Of a stretch of 32,491 bases of DNA, positions 4,841-11,809 are shown one piece after another; positions within the stretch are counted from its first letter, which is position 1, and the number at the start of each line of letters is the position of its first letter. The notes under the pieces are model-generated. The model saw only the letters and a list, made by a program, of their open reading frames with translations. It did not search any database and was not told the DNA's origin. The stretch is taken from positions 10,562-43,052 of the forward strand of contig JAJZHH010000008.1 of assembly GCA_021804595.1 (NCBI GenBank), in the 5' to 3' direction. Position numbers and translations under genes: made by a program. Source of the DNA: Pseudomonadota bacterium. GTDB lineage: Bacteria; Pseudomonadota; Gammaproteobacteria; Burkholderiales; Burkholderiaceae_C.

Positions 4841-4950
4841 CCGATGCGCCTGCGCGCATCGGCGCGCCCGGCGAACGGCCTGGGGCCTCCGGCCCCAGCC
4901 TCCCCTGAGCGCGGCTTCGGAGCGGCCGCGCGCCGCGCGCCGCGCTCAGG
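4841..4950. terminator. Three consecutive perfect hairpins between convergent pirin and GGDEF genes
   Basis: CCGATGCGC-CTGC-GCGCATCGG (4841-4862); CTGGGGCC-TCC-GGCCCCAG (4880-4898); CCTGAGCGCGGC-N23-GCCGCGCTCAGG (4904-4950, overlapping the GGDEF gene stop codon). Confidence 0.55.
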
Positions 4951-6169
4951 CCTCCGCCACCGGCGCCAGGCGCCAGAGGCGGGGCTGGCCGCGCACGCCG
5001 ACGCTGCGCGCGCGGCCGCCGGCCTTGGCCGCGTACATGCGACGGTCGGCGATTTCGACCTGGCTGCGCCAGTCCTGCGGCGAGTCGGCGCGGGCCTCGG
5101 CCACGCCGATGCTCGCGGTGACCGGCGAGCCGTCCGGGCGGCGACCAAGGCCGCTGGCGATGATGCGGTCGATCACCGCATCGGCCTCGTCGGCATCGGC
5201 CGTCGGCAGTACGACGACGAACTCCTCGCCGCCCCAGCGAATCACGCTGTCACCCTTGCGCACCGCCTTGGACAGCGCCTGCGCGGCCTCGCGCAGCACG
5301 CGGTCGCCAACGTCGTGGCCGAAGGTATCGTTGACCGACTTGAAGTGGTCGAGGTCGAAGAACAGCAGCGACAGCGCGCTGGCGTTGATCGCCGCCAGCC
5401 GGAACTGCAGGTCGAGCACGTCGATGCCGGCGCGCCGCGTCAACGCCCCGGTCAGCGTGTCGTAGCTGGCGCGCATCACCTGCGCCAGCATGTAGCGCAA
5501 CTGGCCCAGCGCCGACAGCAGCGCCACGCCGAGCAGCAGCACCAGCAGCCACAGCGTGGCGATCGCGTGCGGCAGCACCGAGGCCGGGTGAAAGTTCATG
5601 CCGGCCAGCGCGACCGCCAGCAGCGGCAACGCGTAGGCATGGAATTCGAGCGCGGTCAGCGGAAACAGCGCCAGTCCGGCGACGATCACGAACGGCAGCT
5701 GCGCGTAAAGCTGCGCCGCCGCCAGCGCCAGCCCCTGCAGCGCGTAGGCATGGATCCAGTGCGCGGTGGCCAGGTAGAACAGCGGCGTGATCGCAAGCAG
5801 CGCGCCGAGCAGCACGCGCGCGCGGCGCAGGTCGGGCGCGCCGCGCGCCAGCCAGGCCAGCCCGAGCAGCGCCAGCGCCGAGACCGCGCGCGTCGCCAGC
5901 AGTTCGTTCCACAGTCCACGCGGCAGCACCAGCAGGTCGACCAGCGCCCACGCCGGGACCAGCAGCGCGAACAGCGCGGCGAAGCCGAACACGCGGCGCT
6001 GGATCAGCGCGGCGCGATGGCGCGCGATCGCCGGGCCGTGGTGCCGCGCGGAAACCAGCTCGCCGAGCTGTTCGAAGGTGCCCAGGCCCAACGTTGCGCA
6101 AAACCGCGCCACCCCCCGGCGCAGCCGGTTCGCGCGCGCCGGCGCTCCGCTCGCATCGCGCTCTTGCAT
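4946..6169 (-). CDS. Membrane-anchored GGDEF diguanylate cyclase
   Basis: Multi-TM N-terminus (FGFAALFALLVPAWALVDLLVL... LWLLVLLLGVALLSALG) then DTLTGALTRRAGI...DLDHFKSVNDTFGHDVGDRVL...RKGDSVIRWGGEEFVVVLP (GGEEF active site with RxxD I-site). Start ATG 6169 with upstream AAGGAGCGG. Confidence 0.92.
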   Translation of the reverse strand: MQERDASGAPARANRLRRGVARFCATLGLGTFEQLGELVSARHHGPAIARHRAALIQRRVFGFAALFALLVPAWALVDLLVLPRGLWNELLATRAVSALALLGLAWLARGAPDLRRARVLLGALLAITPLFYLATAHWIHAYALQGLALAAAQLYAQLPFVIVAGLALFPLTALEFHAYALPLLAVALAGMNFHPASVLPHAIATLWLLVLLLGVALLSALGQLRYMLAQVMRASYDTLTGALTRRAGIDVLDLQFRLAAINASALSLLFFDLDHFKSVNDTFGHDVGDRVLREAAQALSKAVRKGDSVIRWGGEEFVVVLPTADADEADAVIDRIIASGLGRRPDGSPVTASIGVAEARADSPQDWRSQVEIADRRMYAAKAGGRARSVGVRGQPRLWRLAPVAEA

Positions 6170-6526
6170 CGATTCCGCTCCTTGTCTCAGCGCACCTGCT
6201 CGGCGATCAGCGCGATCCCTCGCGGCTCCTGCGCCGGCGCGTCGCGCCCCAGCTTGATCGCAGCGGCCGGGCCGGCGACGAGTTCGCGCGCGGCGGCTTG
6301 GGACCACAAAGCGTCGGATCGCATCGTGGCGCCATGATAGGCAAGGCAGCGCGCGATGCCGCGTCGGCGGGCGCGACCTGCACAACTCTTGCTCCAGGTC
6401 AATCGTCGGTGCCGGTGGGCGCCGCGCGGCGCCCGCTCAAGCTGTCGCTCCGCTATAACCGGTGCCGGTCGCGCGCGCGCACTGCCGGCGCTGCGCGGCC
6501 AGCCCGCCCGAGACCCTGTCGCTCCC

Positions 6527-9500
6527 GTGACCTTGCAACGACCGCTGCGCGCGCTGGCGCATTCAAGCCTGCTGGCGCTGGCGGCGCTGCTCGCGCCGTG
6601 GCTGGCCTTGACCGCGCTGGCCGCCGGCCTGCTGCGCCACGAGGCCGATGCCGTGCGCCGCGAAATCGACACCCGCGCCCGCACCCAGGCCATCGCACTG
6701 GCGCAGCTCGTCGCCGGCCGGCTCAATACCCAGTACCGCGAACTGCAGTTCGCCGGCGTGGCGCTGCTCGGCCTGCACGACGACCCGCGCCATCCGGACG
6801 CGAACACGGTGCGCACGCTGCGTGAGTTCGCCTCGCTGCACCCGAACCTGTACGCCTTCAATGTGCAAGGCGCCGACGGCAACACGATCATCTGGTCGAC
6901 CCATCCGCAAAGCGCGCGGCCGATCACCGCCGCCCGCGGCTTCACCGCGCTGACCGCGCAACCCGACTTCCTGCTCGGGCGCGAGCGCCTGGCCACCCGT
7001 GCGCTGCAATCCAACGCCTCGCACGGCTGGAGCAGCGGCCACGTGATCACGATGCGCGTGCGCGTGCGCGGTGCCGACGGCAGCACCCGCTACTTCGTCG
7101 GCTCGCCGTACCGCGTCGAAGATCTGCTGCAGACCGCCGCGCTGCGCGGCGCGCCGTGGCGCCTGCGCGTCGTCGACCGGCGCGACGGTGCAACGATCGG
7201 CCAGATCGACGCGCACGGTGTCGAATTCCGTCGCCGCGGCGGCGCCGCGGCCGACGCGCCGGGAGCCACGGTCGCGGTGCCGGGCTACCCGCTCGAAGTT
7301 CGCGCGAACGCCCCCGCCGCCTACGTCTCCGCGTTGCTGCGCCGGACGCTGACGCCGCTGGCATGGTGGTTCGGCGCACTGCTCGCGGTGCTCGGCGCAT
7401 CGAGTGCTTTCGTCGGCCTGCTGCTGCGCCGCCTGGCCGCGCGCAACGCCGCGCTGGCCCACGCGTCGACGCTGCTGCAGCGATCCGGCGAGCTGCAGTC
7501 CTTCCTGGCCCAGGTCAACCAGGCGGCGGCAAGGCTCGACGACGAAGCCGTCTTCCTCGATGAGCTGTGCCGGCGGGCGATCGACGACGGCCGCCTGGCG
7601 CTGGCTTTTGTCGGGCGACCACGAGCCGACGGCACGCTGGAGTTCGTCGCCGGCGCCGGGCAGACCGACTATCTCGACGGACTGCTGATCTCGATCGCGC
7701 CCGACCGCGCCGAAGGGCGCGGCCCGGCCGGCTGCGCCTGGCGTGACGGTCGCGCCTACTTCAACGCCAGCTTCGCGTCGGCGCCGCTGGTGCCATGGCG
7801 CGAACGCGCCGCGCGCTTCGGCCTGCAGGCCAGCGCCGCGCTGCCGATCCGGCGCGACGGCGCCAGCTGGGCGGTGCTGATCCTGTGCCGCGGCGACGAC
7901 GTCGCGTTCGACCCGCCGATGCAGCGCCTGCTGCTCGAGCTGGCCGACGACGTCGGCCACGGCCTCGAGCGCATCGCGCACCGCCAGCGCCTGCGGCTGC
8001 TCGACACCGCGGTGGCGGCACTGTCGGACGGGCTGACGATCGCCGACCCGCAGCACCGGCTGATCTTCGTCAACGCAGCGTTCACGACGATCACCGGCTA
8101 CCGCCGCGACGAAGTCCTCGGCCGCAGCGCCGCGCTGCTGCAGGGCCGCGGCAGCGACGCCGAAGTCGTCGCGCGCATCGGCCAGGCCTTGCGCGACGGC
8201 ATCCGCTTCGACGGCGAACTGCTGAACCGGCGCCGCGACGGCACGCCGTTCTGGAACCATCTGCACATCGACCCGGTGCGCAATGCGCAGGGCGACCTCA
8301 CCCACTACATCGGCATCCAGCACGACGCCAGCCGCGAGCGTGAAGCGCTCGATCTGCAGCAGGCGCTGCTGGCCAACGCGCAGTCGGGCATCCTCATCGC
8401 CCGCCACCGTGCCATCGTCGCGGCCAATTCGGCGATGGCCGAGATGCTCGGCTGCGCACCGGCCGAGCTGATCGGCCGCGAAGCTCGCCGGCTCTATGCC
8501 GACGACACCGAAGCGGCCCGCGTCGGCGCTGCCTACGCGACGCTGCGCGAACAACGCTGGGTTGCGCTGTCCGGCGTACGCCTGCGCCGCGCCGACGGCG
8601 CCGCGCCGCTGTGCGACCTGCACGGCCGCCTGCTGTCGGACGGCGAGACCTCGGTGTGGACCTTCATCGACGTCACCGAACGCGAAGCGCAGGCGCAGCG
8701 CCTGCAGCGCGCGCAGCGGGTGTACCGCGCGCTGCTGGCAGCGGCCGACGCGCTGCTGCAAAGCGCCAGCGACTCCGAAATGATCGAGCGGCTGTGCGCC
8801 AGCCTGCTCGACGGCACCGACTTCAGCGCGATCTGGCTGGTGCGACCCGACGCGCAAGGCGTGTTCGGCACACTCGGCCGCGCCAGCGCGACGGCTGCCG
8901 GACTGGCCTTTCTCGATGCGCTGCGCGTGTCGCTCGACGACCCGCGCGCGCTGGTCGCGCGGGCCTGGCGCGAGCAGTCGACGACGATCCATCTGGATCA
9001 TCCGGCCGCCCACGCAGGCACCGAGCACGCCGACGCGCTGCGCCGGCTGGACTGGAACTGCGCGCTGGCCACGCCGGTGCCGAGGGCGCAGCGACCCTGG
9101 GGCGTGCTGGCGTTCACATCGAACGCCGCCGGCGGCTTCGACGACGTCACGCGCGCGGCCTGCGAGCAGGTCGCCGCACTGCTCGGCCACGGCCTCGACG
9201 AAGTCGACCGCAAACACGCGCTGCAGGCCCTGCAAAGCGCCGAGAGCCAGCGCGCGCGCACCGATGCGCTGACCGGGCTGCCGAACCGGCTGGCGCTCGA
9301 CGAATACCTGCCCGGCGCGCTGGCGCGGGCCGAGCGACGGCAATCGGTGCTGGCCGTCGGCATGCTCGACCTCGACGACTTCAAGCCGGTCAACGACACC
9401 TTCGGCCACGCCGCCGGCGACGCGCTGCTGCGCGCCTTCGCCGACGCGCTGCGTGCCCGCCTGCGCCGCGGCGACTTCCTCGCCCGCGTCGGCGGCGACG

Positions 9501-11809
9501 AATTCGTCGTCGTCTGCGAGAACCTCGACCGCGAACGCCACCTCGACGAACTCGGCGTCGCGCTCGATCGGCTTCACGGTGCGGTAGGCGCGCCGTTCGA
9601 CCTCGGCGACGGCCGCCGCGCGCAAGTCGGCATGACGATGGGCCTGGCCTGTTACCCGGTCGACGCCAGCGAGCCCGACGCGTTGCTGCGGCTGGCCGAT
9701 GCGGCGATGTACGCCAACAAGCTGCACAAGCTCGACCGCGCCAGCTGGTGGCGCGTCGGCACGGACGCCGAGACGGCCGACGGCGACAGCCGCGAGGCTG
9801 CGTTCGACCTGTTCGGCGTCGAAGCCGACGCACTGCTGGAATCGCTCGACGCGACGCTGCTCGACTCGCTGGCGGCCGAGCTGGTCGATGCACTCGCCGG
9901 TGACACGGCGGCGGCCGACGCGCGTGAGTCCATCCTGCGCGAGCTCGACCCCGCCGAACTCGCCGGCGCCGCGCGCGCGCTGGCCGCGCATCTGCGCGGT
10001 CTGCTGCGCCCGCGCACGACACGCGAGGCGCTGCAGGCCGGTGCCCGCGCGCTGGGCCGTACGCACGCGCTGGCCGGGGTATCAGCGGCCAGCATCGAGG
10101 AGGCCTTCGGCGTCTACGAGGACTTGCTGCGCGCCAGGCTGGAGGGCGCGCTGATCTCGTCGCGCCGGCGCTACCGCGTGCTGCGCGTGGCCACCGGACG
10201 ACTGCGGCTGGACCTGCAGACGCAGCTGGTCGCGATCGGGCAGACCTCGGCGCGCTATTTCGCGCTGCTCGAGCACTCGGGCAACACCGCGCAGCGCTGG
10301 GTCGACGTGCTGCCGGCGATGCTGCGCCAGCTGGGCGAGCTTCCCGGAGTGCGCCACGCCGTCGTGTTCCGCCCCGACGCGCACGGCACGCTGCGCGACG
10401 AGGCGGGGGTTGGCGCCGACTACGAAGCGTTGGCGGCGCGCATGCGCGGCAGCCGTCTGCACTTGACCCAGGACGACGCCGTCGACGAACTGCGCGAGCC
10501 GGTCGCGCTGGCCTGGTTCACGCGCCAGGTGCAGACCGTCGGCGCGCTCGCGCGCGATGGCCGGCTGGCGCACTGGCACGAGCTCGCGCGCGACGCCGGC
10601 TGGCGCAGCGCGGCGTGCGTGCCGATCGCCAGCGGCGACGACACCGACAGCGTGCTGGTGCTGTTCGGTGCCTACCCCCAGCAGTTCTCGTCGGACTGGA
10701 TGCGTTCGTGGCTCGAGCTGCTTCGAAACGGCATCGGCTCGCAATTCGCCGCATCCGCGCGCGGCCACCGCGCGATCGCGCCCGAGCGCCGCCGCGCACT
10801 GCGCGAGCTGCTGCACGGGCGCGGACTGCGCATGTGGGTGCAGCCCATCGTCGACCTGCAAAGCGGTGCGGTGACCAAGGTCGAGGCCTTGGCGCGGCTG
10901 CACGCGGCCGACGACGAAGTACTGCTGCCGGCGCAGTTCCTGCCCGCGTTCGGCGAGCAGGAGCTGCAGTCGCTGTTCCTGCAGGGCCTGGAACAGGCGC
11001 TCGACACCGTCCACGGCTGGCGCGAGGCGGGGCTCGACGTCGAGATCGCCATCAACCTGCCGCCGTCGACCCTGGCTCATCCCGATTGTGCGTCGTGGAT
11101 CGAGCAGGCGCTGCGCCGGGCCCAGGTCGGCGCGCGCCAGCTGGTGGTCGAAGTCCTCGAGAACGAAGAGATCGACCGCGCGCGCAGCGACGAGGCGATC
11201 TACGCGCTGGGCGCGCTCGGCGTGCGTCTGGCGCTCGACGACCTCGGCGCCGGCTACAACAGCCTGACGCGACTGGCCGCGCTGCCGATCGACACCGTCA
11301 AGATCGATCAGGGCCTGCTGCGCGGGCTGCGCGGCGATCCGGTGAAGACCGTGCGACTGCTCGCGACGCTGCTGCGCCTGGGCCAGCAGTTCGCGCTGCG
11401 CACCGTCGTCGAAGGCCTGGAAACCGACGACCACGTCGAGGCGGCGCAGCTGCTCGGCGCGCAGTTCGGTCAGGGCTATGCGCTGGCGCGGCCGATGCCG
11501 GCGGCCGATTTCCCGGCGTGGATGCGCGCCCGCGCTGCGCCGCGTCCGGCCGCCGACGGCGCGCTGCGCAGTTGGCTGGGCGCGCTGACCCATCAATGGG
11601 TCGCCGCGCGCGACCCGCTGCGGCTGCACGAGCCCGGCGTGCTCGAGTCGTGTGCGCTGACACGCTTCCTGCGCGAACGTGGAATCGACGACGCGCGAGT
11701 GCTCGACTGGCACGCGCGCGTGCACCTCGCCGCCCCCTCGCCGCAGCGAGACGACGCCGCCGAGGCCTTGCTGCAATGGCTGGCGCGTCGCGTCGCCGCG
11801 CCCGACTGA
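6527..11809 (+). CDS. Multidomain sensory GGDEF-EAL protein (TM / periplasmic sensor / TM / GAF / LOV-like PAS / PAS / GAF / GGDEF / helical middle domain / GAF / EAL / CZB-like tail)
   Basis: Open frame 6356-11809. Probable GTG start at 6527 just before the first TM (VTLQRPLRALAHSSLLALAALLAPWLALTALAAGLL); upstream in-frame ATG at 6356 gives a low-quality Arg-rich extension. RRGDFLARVGGDEFVVV (GGDEF with RxxD) and VEALARL...INLPPSTL...LALDDLGAGYNSL...VKIDQGLL...VVEGLET (EAL). Confidence 0.9.
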   Translation: MTLQRPLRALAHSSLLALAALLAPWLALTALAAGLLRHEADAVRREIDTRARTQAIALAQLVAGRLNTQYRELQFAGVALLGLHDDPRHPDANTVRTLREFASLHPNLYAFNVQGADGNTIIWSTHPQSARPITAARGFTALTAQPDFLLGRERLATRALQSNASHGWSSGHVITMRVRVRGADGSTRYFVGSPYRVEDLLQTAALRGAPWRLRVVDRRDGATIGQIDAHGVEFRRRGGAAADAPGATVAVPGYPLEVRANAPAAYVSALLRRTLTPLAWWFGALLAVLGASSAFVGLLLRRLAARNAALAHASTLLQRSGELQSFLAQVNQAAARLDDEAVFLDELCRRAIDDGRLALAFVGRPRADGTLEFVAGAGQTDYLDGLLISIAPDRAEGRGPAGCAWRDGRAYFNASFASAPLVPWRERAARFGLQASAALPIRRDGASWAVLILCRGDDVAFDPPMQRLLLELADDVGHGLERIAHRQRLRLLDTAVAALSDGLTIADPQHRLIFVNAAFTTITGYRRDEVLGRSAALLQGRGSDAEVVARIGQALRDGIRFDGELLNRRRDGTPFWNHLHIDPVRNAQGDLTHYIGIQHDASREREALDLQQALLANAQSGILIARHRAIVAANSAMAEMLGCAPAELIGREARRLYADDTEAARVGAAYATLREQRWVALSGVRLRRADGAAPLCDLHGRLLSDGETSVWTFIDVTEREAQAQRLQRAQRVYRALLAAADALLQSASDSEMIERLCASLLDGTDFSAIWLVRPDAQGVFGTLGRASATAAGLAFLDALRVSLDDPRALVARAWREQSTTIHLDHPAAHAGTEHADALRRLDWNCALATPVPRAQRPWGVLAFTSNAAGGFDDVTRAACEQVAALLGHGLDEVDRKHALQALQSAESQRARTDALTGLPNRLALDEYLPGALARAERRQSVLAVGMLDLDDFKPVNDTFGHAAGDALLRAFADALRARLRRGDFLARVGGDEFVVVCENLDRERHLDELGVALDRLHGAVGAPFDLGDGRRAQVGMTMGLACYPVDASEPDALLRLADAAMYANKLHKLDRASWWRVGTDAETADGDSREAAFDLFGVEADALLESLDATLLDSLAAELVDALAGDTAAADARESILRELDPAELAGAARALAAHLRGLLRPRTTREALQAGARALGRTHALAGVSAASIEEAFGVYEDLLRARLEGALISSRRRYRVLRVATGRLRLDLQTQLVAIGQTSARYFALLEHSGNTAQRWVDVLPAMLRQLGELPGVRHAVVFRPDAHGTLRDEAGVGADYEALAARMRGSRLHLTQDDAVDELREPVALAWFTRQVQTVGALARDGRLAHWHELARDAGWRSAACVPIASGDDTDSVLVLFGAYPQQFSSDWMRSWLELLRNGIGSQFAASARGHRAIAPERRRALRELLHGRGLRMWVQPIVDLQSGAVTKVEALARLHAADDEVLLPAQFLPAFGEQELQSLFLQGLEQALDTVHGWREAGLDVEIAINLPPSTLAHPDCASWIEQALRRAQVGARQLVVEVLENEEIDRARSDEAIYALGALGVRLALDDLGAGYNSLTRLAALPIDTVKIDQGLLRGLRGDPVKTVRLLATLLRLGQQFALRTVVEGLETDDHVEAAQLLGAQFGQGYALARPMPAADFPAWMRARAAPRPAADGALRSWLGALTHQWVAARDPLRLHEPGVLESCALTRFLRERGIDDARVLDWHARVHLAAPSPQRDDAAEALLQWLARRVAAPD

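Follow-up and report, generated by a model that had tools for sequence, protein, structure and literature searches.

The window analysed here, a 32,491-nucleotide stretch of a Burkholderiaceae_C contig, encodes a large GGDEF-EAL protein containing a domain that, on the simplest reading, is a LOV domain by descent in which alanine has replaced the flavin-adduct cysteine. Full-length orthologues in a genus of another family carry the cysteine at the same place. The best overall explanation, on which we are almost evenly divided, is a Cys-less LOV domain that works as an adduct-free flavin sensor. The domain had been noticed earlier from the sequence alone, and with profile, fold and orthologue comparisons added, that observation is confirmed and better supported than the sequence alone could show.

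Architecture of the host protein

The protein is encoded by a single open reading frame in which the Pfam domains follow in the order GAF, PAS, PAS, GAF, GGDEF, GAF and EAL. Its parts are:

6356-11809, plus strand: open reading frame, 1817 aa, encoding the multidomain GGDEF-EAL protein
6527-7525, plus strand: N-terminal membrane/periplasmic sensor region (no Pfam match)
7541-7966, plus strand: GAF1 (Pfam GAF_2, residues 396-537)
8000-8350, plus strand: LOV-derived domain without adduct Cys (residues 549-665)
8357-8725, plus strand: second PAS domain, PAS2 (carried by all six same-genus orthologues and by none of the four in g126)
8753-9220, plus strand: GAF2 (Pfam and orthologue alignment)
9257-9730, plus strand: GGDEF domain, motif intact, RVGGDEFVVV (Pfam)
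9743-10225, plus strand: protoglobin / globin-coupled-sensor domain (below the Pfam cut-off here, clear in orthologues)
10226-10765, plus strand: GAF3 (Pfam and orthologue alignment)
10793-11494, plus strand: EAL domain, EAL motif present, KVEALARL (Pfam)

Both signature motifs of a dual GGDEF-EAL c-di-GMP enzyme are present, with Pfam scores of 132 bits (GGDEF) and 171 bits (EAL). The protein occurs in 6 of the 28 genomes of the window's genus (g1; the query itself is G000) and in 4 of the 7 genomes of g126, a genus of another family (f20) in the same order. The true start probably lies nearer the GTG at 6527, about residue 58, because homology to the orthologue in G025 begins there; the protein would then be about 1760 aa long. 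The region 6527-7525 is confined to the query's close clade (72% identical in G025; the G019 copy ends with its contig), and in the orthologue alignment G012, G022 and the g126 proteins lack it. Upstream lies a divergent membrane-type GGDEF gene (4946-6385, minus strand), the longest ORF of which extends over the beginning of the large one. The earlier note had assigned the LOV-like domain to residues ~490-610, which is wrong, as the domain spans residues 549-665; the DNA coordinates it gave were right.

A LOV domain rather than a generic PAS domain

The proposed affinity of the domain to LOV rather than to generic PAS is borne out by profile scores, fold, tree position and the Cys-bearing full-length orthologues. 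When the domain alone was searched against NCBIfam profiles, YtvA_fam scored 100.7 bits and the LOV of blue-light histidine kinases 97.3, followed by NifL at 73.0 and sensory_box at 64.0. Nearly all of the best 60 matches in a sequence search of solved structures were LOV or LOV-derived, the clear exception being MmoS (3ewk), which ranked second. Modelled with AlphaFold2 from an alignment that included 24 related domains, the domain has a predicted LOV-like fold (pLDDT 91.7); LOV domains abound in that alignment, and the model therefore does not count as evidence separate from the sequence comparison. Fold matches of the model in the PDB place LOV domains first, led by a Meiothermus LOV (9vf7; TM ~0.9, 40% identity), with Brucella LOV-HK and the Cys-to-Ala protein CagFbFP also among the top matches. 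CagFbFP (Chloroflexus aggregans, C85A, e.g. 6rhf) shares with the query the exchange of Cys for Ala, 42-45% identity over ~100 residues and an rmsd of 0.7 A to the model; unlike the query, it is engineered, and its motif GRNARFLQ is otherwise intact.

As a background we used 220 distinct PAS/LOV domains drawn from 157 fetched loci, a sample that leans towards LOV, one of the collection scans having used the peptide [RK]DG[TA]PFWN. Within this LOV-leaning sample, 75 of the 88 Cys-bearing domains combine Asn94, Asn104 and Gln123 (YtvA numbering), as against 13 of the 132 Cys-less ones, and the Asn/Asn/Gln set exceeds chance. N104 is present in 100% of the Cys domains and 19% of the others, and Q123 in 85% and 17%, respectively; among the non-Cys domains, 47% have the Asn of NRRKDG. 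Other Cys-less domains with the full set come from Halomonas, Marinobacter, Methylococcaceae, Methyloversatilis and one haloarchaeon, and the class is widespread. A protein at a separate locus (L091, from an Ignavibacteriae MAG) has three tandem LOV-type domains in residues 1409-1775, of which the first two (GKNRDYLQ and GKNRDFLQ) have no Cys and the third reads GKNCRFLQ.

Orthologues and probable loss of the adduct cysteine

The g126 orthologues (G253, G313, G352 and G353) align with the query from GAF1 to the C-terminus, with the LOV domain likewise between GAF1 and GAF2 and the same Asn/Asn/Gln. They differ in having neither the second PAS nor the periplasmic domain, and in possessing the adduct Cys together with Asn61, Phe64 and Arg467 (AsLOV2 numbering): all four read GRNCNFLQ, with TGC as the Cys codon, and retain both Asn, the Gln and the second phosphate-contact Arg. 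The earlier note would have given up its reading had the closest homologues been non-LOV PAS domains lacking Asn/Asn/Gln; outside the genus they are instead Cys-LOV domains with the full set. Across the six same-genus carriers, the Cys position holds A in the query, P in G019, A in G025 and L in G012, G022 and G024. An assembly or sequencing error at this codon is ruled out, six separate genomes being without the Cys.

In a careful 72-row domain tree from which the active-site columns had been removed, and which replaced a poorer quick tree of 114 rows, the ten domains (six same-genus and four g126) form one group with support of 100/99. Its neighbours in the tree are Cys-LOV domains, and nearly all other PAS fall elsewhere. 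The ten whole proteins likewise group together at 98/99. When the same-genus domains were placed beside other PAS in the 107-column domain alignment, the AU test gave p 0.315 with the careful tree and p 0.607 with the poorer quick one. Because this domain-only test did not reject the alternative, what argues for descent is the orthology of the whole proteins, along with the profile and fold scores.

These p values are among the points that speak for a generic PAS, or a FAD-redox PAS of the NifL/MmoS type, that merely resembles LOV. Such a domain would share with NifL, Aer and MmoS the PAS fold and a possible flavin redox input without an adduct; the NifL score of 73 bits, the second rank of MmoS 3ewk and the commonness of the NRRKDG Asn (47% of non-Cys domains) would also fit. 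However, YtvA_fam stands 27 bits above NifL, the FWN and GIQ residues are LOV-typical by the N104 and Q123 frequencies, and a Cys-LOV occupies the same place in the full-length orthologues. Unlike the LOV relatives, NifL, Aer and MmoS score lower in profiles and are not the closest relatives of the query. From the profiles and orthologues, we judge a generic PAS to be very unlikely.

The cysteine was with high probability lost in the window's genus rather than gained. Loss is simpler because Cys-LOV domains surround the ten-domain group, the rooting of which is unsettled. The three same-genus branches and g126 form a polytomy that fits one loss or several, and the PAS2 shared by all six same-genus orthologues favours a single loss; in their other parts, the trees need several independent losses of the Cys. 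We suggest that an ancestral GAF-LOV-GAF-GGDEF-globin-EAL protein carried the adduct Cys, which would have been lost in the window's genus and kept in g126. A class-wide sample scanned for intermediates yielded zero further clear orthologues. The spread of the protein is patchy, covering two families (g1 and g126), and no copy turned up in the remaining families sampled across the order and class; horizontal transfer is possible.

Residues of the flavin pocket

The four codons named in the earlier note are in frame in the ORF at 6356-11809 and encode Ala592, Asn624, Asn634 and Gln655, which confirms the Asn/Asn/Gln retention and the Ala in place of Cys that it had described. The LOV positions are as follows:

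8126-8128, plus strand: Ser591, at the position of LOV Asn61 (YtvA) / N449 (AsLOV2)
8129-8131, plus strand: Ala592 (GCC), at the adduct-Cys position (TGC Cys in four other-family orthologues)
8132-8134, plus strand: Ala593, at the first phosphate-contact Arg (R63 YtvA / R451 AsLOV2)
8141-8143, plus strand: Gln596, equal to LOV Gln66 (YtvA), kept
8180-8182, plus strand: Gly609, at the second phosphate-contact Arg (R467 AsLOV2; Arg in the G012, G022, G024 and g126 orthologues)
8225-8227, plus strand: Asn624 (AAC), flavin-ring Asn kept (Asn94 YtvA)
8255-8257, plus strand: Asn634 (AAC), flavin-ring Asn kept (Asn104 YtvA)
8318-8320, plus strand: Gln655 (CAG), N5-facing Gln kept (Gln123 YtvA; Leu in G012, G022 and G024)

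In the helix motif, GRSAALLQ against the canonical GXNCRFLQ, Leu594 also stands at the position of LOV Phe64. Four losses had been overlooked: Asn61 to Ser591, Arg63 to Ala593, Phe64 to Leu594 and the second phosphate Arg (R467) to Gly609. The same Ser, Ala, Leu and Gly are found throughout the query clade (G000, G019 and G025), which retains Gln66, Asn94, Asn104 and Gln123. In G012, G022 and G024, Gln123 has become Leu, and in the latter two Gln66 is His. A substitute Cys was looked for throughout the query domain, which has zero Cys and also zero Met; this absence makes a flavin-Cys adduct impossible.

Natural Cys-less LOV domains are already known: Yee et al. (2015) list ~70, with Ala, His or Pro replacing Cys (PMC4682037). 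The published filter for such domains demands at least 9 of 10 other conserved residues, those listed being G59, N61, R63, F64, L65, Q66, N94, N104 and Q123 (PMC4682037); the query keeps six of the nine listed, having changed at the other three (N61S, R63A, F64L), and so fails it. Five Cys-bearing LOV domains in our collected set also score only 6, and both phosphate Arg are missing in only 3 of 67 non-redundant Cys-LOV domains, e.g. a Billgrantia domain with GRSCSFLQ and Gly at the second Arg. The losses are therefore no proof of an empty pocket. The query resembles the LOV* domains (BAT-LOV*, haloarchaea; PMC4682037) in keeping the flavin-ring residues while the Cys is replaced, by Pro in BAT and G019 and by Ala in the query. 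It differs from them in having also lost Asn61, Arg63, Phe64 and the second of the phosphate Arg, and in retaining 6/9 filter residues, fewer than the filter demands. Natural BAT-LOV* shows modest flavin binding, slow photoreduction and a shape change upon reduction, and restoring its Cys (P188C) did not form an adduct (PMC4682037). Because of this last result, the A-to-C reversion that had been proposed as a check would not be decisive.

Selection and the flavin-free alternative

Simple Nei-Gojobori estimates among the three nearest species (G000, G019 and G025) give dN/dS values of 0.26, 0.19 and 0.17 for the LOV-derived domain. These lie near those of GAF1 (0.16-0.22), GGDEF (0.22-0.33) and EAL (0.22), and below those of PAS2 (0.42-0.61) and GAF2 (0.41-0.58). 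Because dN/dS is low, the domain is constrained and presumably functional, and the same value would be expected of a flavin sensor or of a structural relay. Decay of the domain is unsupported at a dN/dS of 0.17-0.26. We also looked for special conservation of the flavin pocket and found none: in the query clade 16 of 18 pocket positions are invariant versus 69 of 94 in the rest, and across all six same-genus orthologues the figures are 6/18 and 36/94.

In an alternative that we consider nearly as likely as flavin binding, the domain is LOV by descent and flavin-free today: having lost the Cys and the phosphate clamp, it would serve within the GAF-PAS-PAS-GAF stack as an ordinary PAS module for relay or dimerisation, or bind another small ligand. 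It would account for the loss of the Asn61, Arg63, Phe64 and Arg467 equivalents besides the Cys, for sister orthologues with Gln lost and Gln66 changed to His, and for pocket residues without extra conservation, and a relay would give a low dN/dS too. On the other hand, the query clade retains Gln66 and all three flavin-ring residues, and the existence of Cys-LOV domains without both Arg (3/67) means that Arg loss alone does not prove the absence of flavin.

A proposed adduct-free flavin sensor and the place of light

That the query domain binds flavin is a proposition we hold with slightly more doubt than belief. In the adduct-free flavin sensor that we tentatively prefer, the domain would act within the cytoplasmic stack, still under selection, and would hold flavin via the ring contacts Asn624, Asn634 and Gln655. 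Reduction of the flavin, chemically or by light, may then shift Gln655 and the beta-sheet, and this shift may alter the GGDEF/EAL output in a direction that we can only suppose. The usual input would be redox state rather than light.

Light sensing by the domain is less likely than flavin binding. If it occurred, it would be through a flavin semiquinone formed by photoreduction, as in Cys-less VVD and YF1, which signal in this way (PMC4682037). Retention of Gln655 would suit such a mechanism, as would a second LOV domain in the same genome, which has its Cys, so that flavin light sensing probably exists in the organism. Yet the natural Cys-less BAT-LOV* combines poor photoreduction with modest flavin binding (PMC4682037), and the phosphate contacts are missing in the query; we consider light sensing here improbable. 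Of the earlier proposal of a redox or light input to c-di-GMP output, the LOV origin stands, and flavin or light signalling is plausible but weakened because of the unnoticed losses (both Arg, Asn61 and Phe64, with the Gln gone in three of six same-genus orthologues) and the failed Cys-less filter.

Gln-less LOV receptors, including one LOV-diguanylate cyclase, do work (Dietler et al. 2022, PMC9098866). The Gln-less LOV-GGDEF receptors resemble our protein as natural LOV-to-c-di-GMP proteins missing a residue thought essential, but they keep the Cys and lose the Gln (PMC9098866), whereas the query has lost the Cys and kept the Gln.

Most of the natural Cys-less LOV domains are known as isolated entries in databases, and we found a biochemical study for only one. 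The query adds one with Cys-bearing orthologues: the same multidomain protein has the Cys in one genus and is without it in another, and the consequences of adduct loss for cofactor, input and c-di-GMP output could be compared between orthologues. A bolder and rather unlikely proposal is that one orthologous enzyme spans a natural series, from a blue-light receptor that forms the adduct (g126) through a Cys-less flavin redox sensor (query clade, which keeps Asn/Asn/Gln) to a flavin-free PAS (G012, G022 and G024, without the Gln too), with the heme-type globin sensor retained throughout. If so, a change from light to redox input would be dissectable in otherwise matched proteins.

The globin domain and other sensors in the genome

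The protoglobin profile PF11563 matches the best orthologue at E 2.8e-10 and the query, searched as a domain alone, at 0.012, below the cut-off. Fold matches of the region are DosC, HemAT and AfGcHK at E 0.002-0.1, and the F-helix His is invariant in six orthologues. Putative heme-based gas or redox sensing by this domain is a possible second input. Elsewhere in the genome there are nine protoglobin matches above the Pfam cut-off.

Just one further strong LOV match exists in the genome, at G000:C61:15249-15638 (minus strand; loci L002, L164 and L187); it has the Cys (GRNCRFLQ) and lies in a GAF-LOV-GAF-GGDEF-EAL protein. Ser replaces its conserved Gln (GLSTD), which makes it a natural Gln-less LOV like those of PMC9098866. 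In its G013 and G020 relatives, Met occupies the Gln position.
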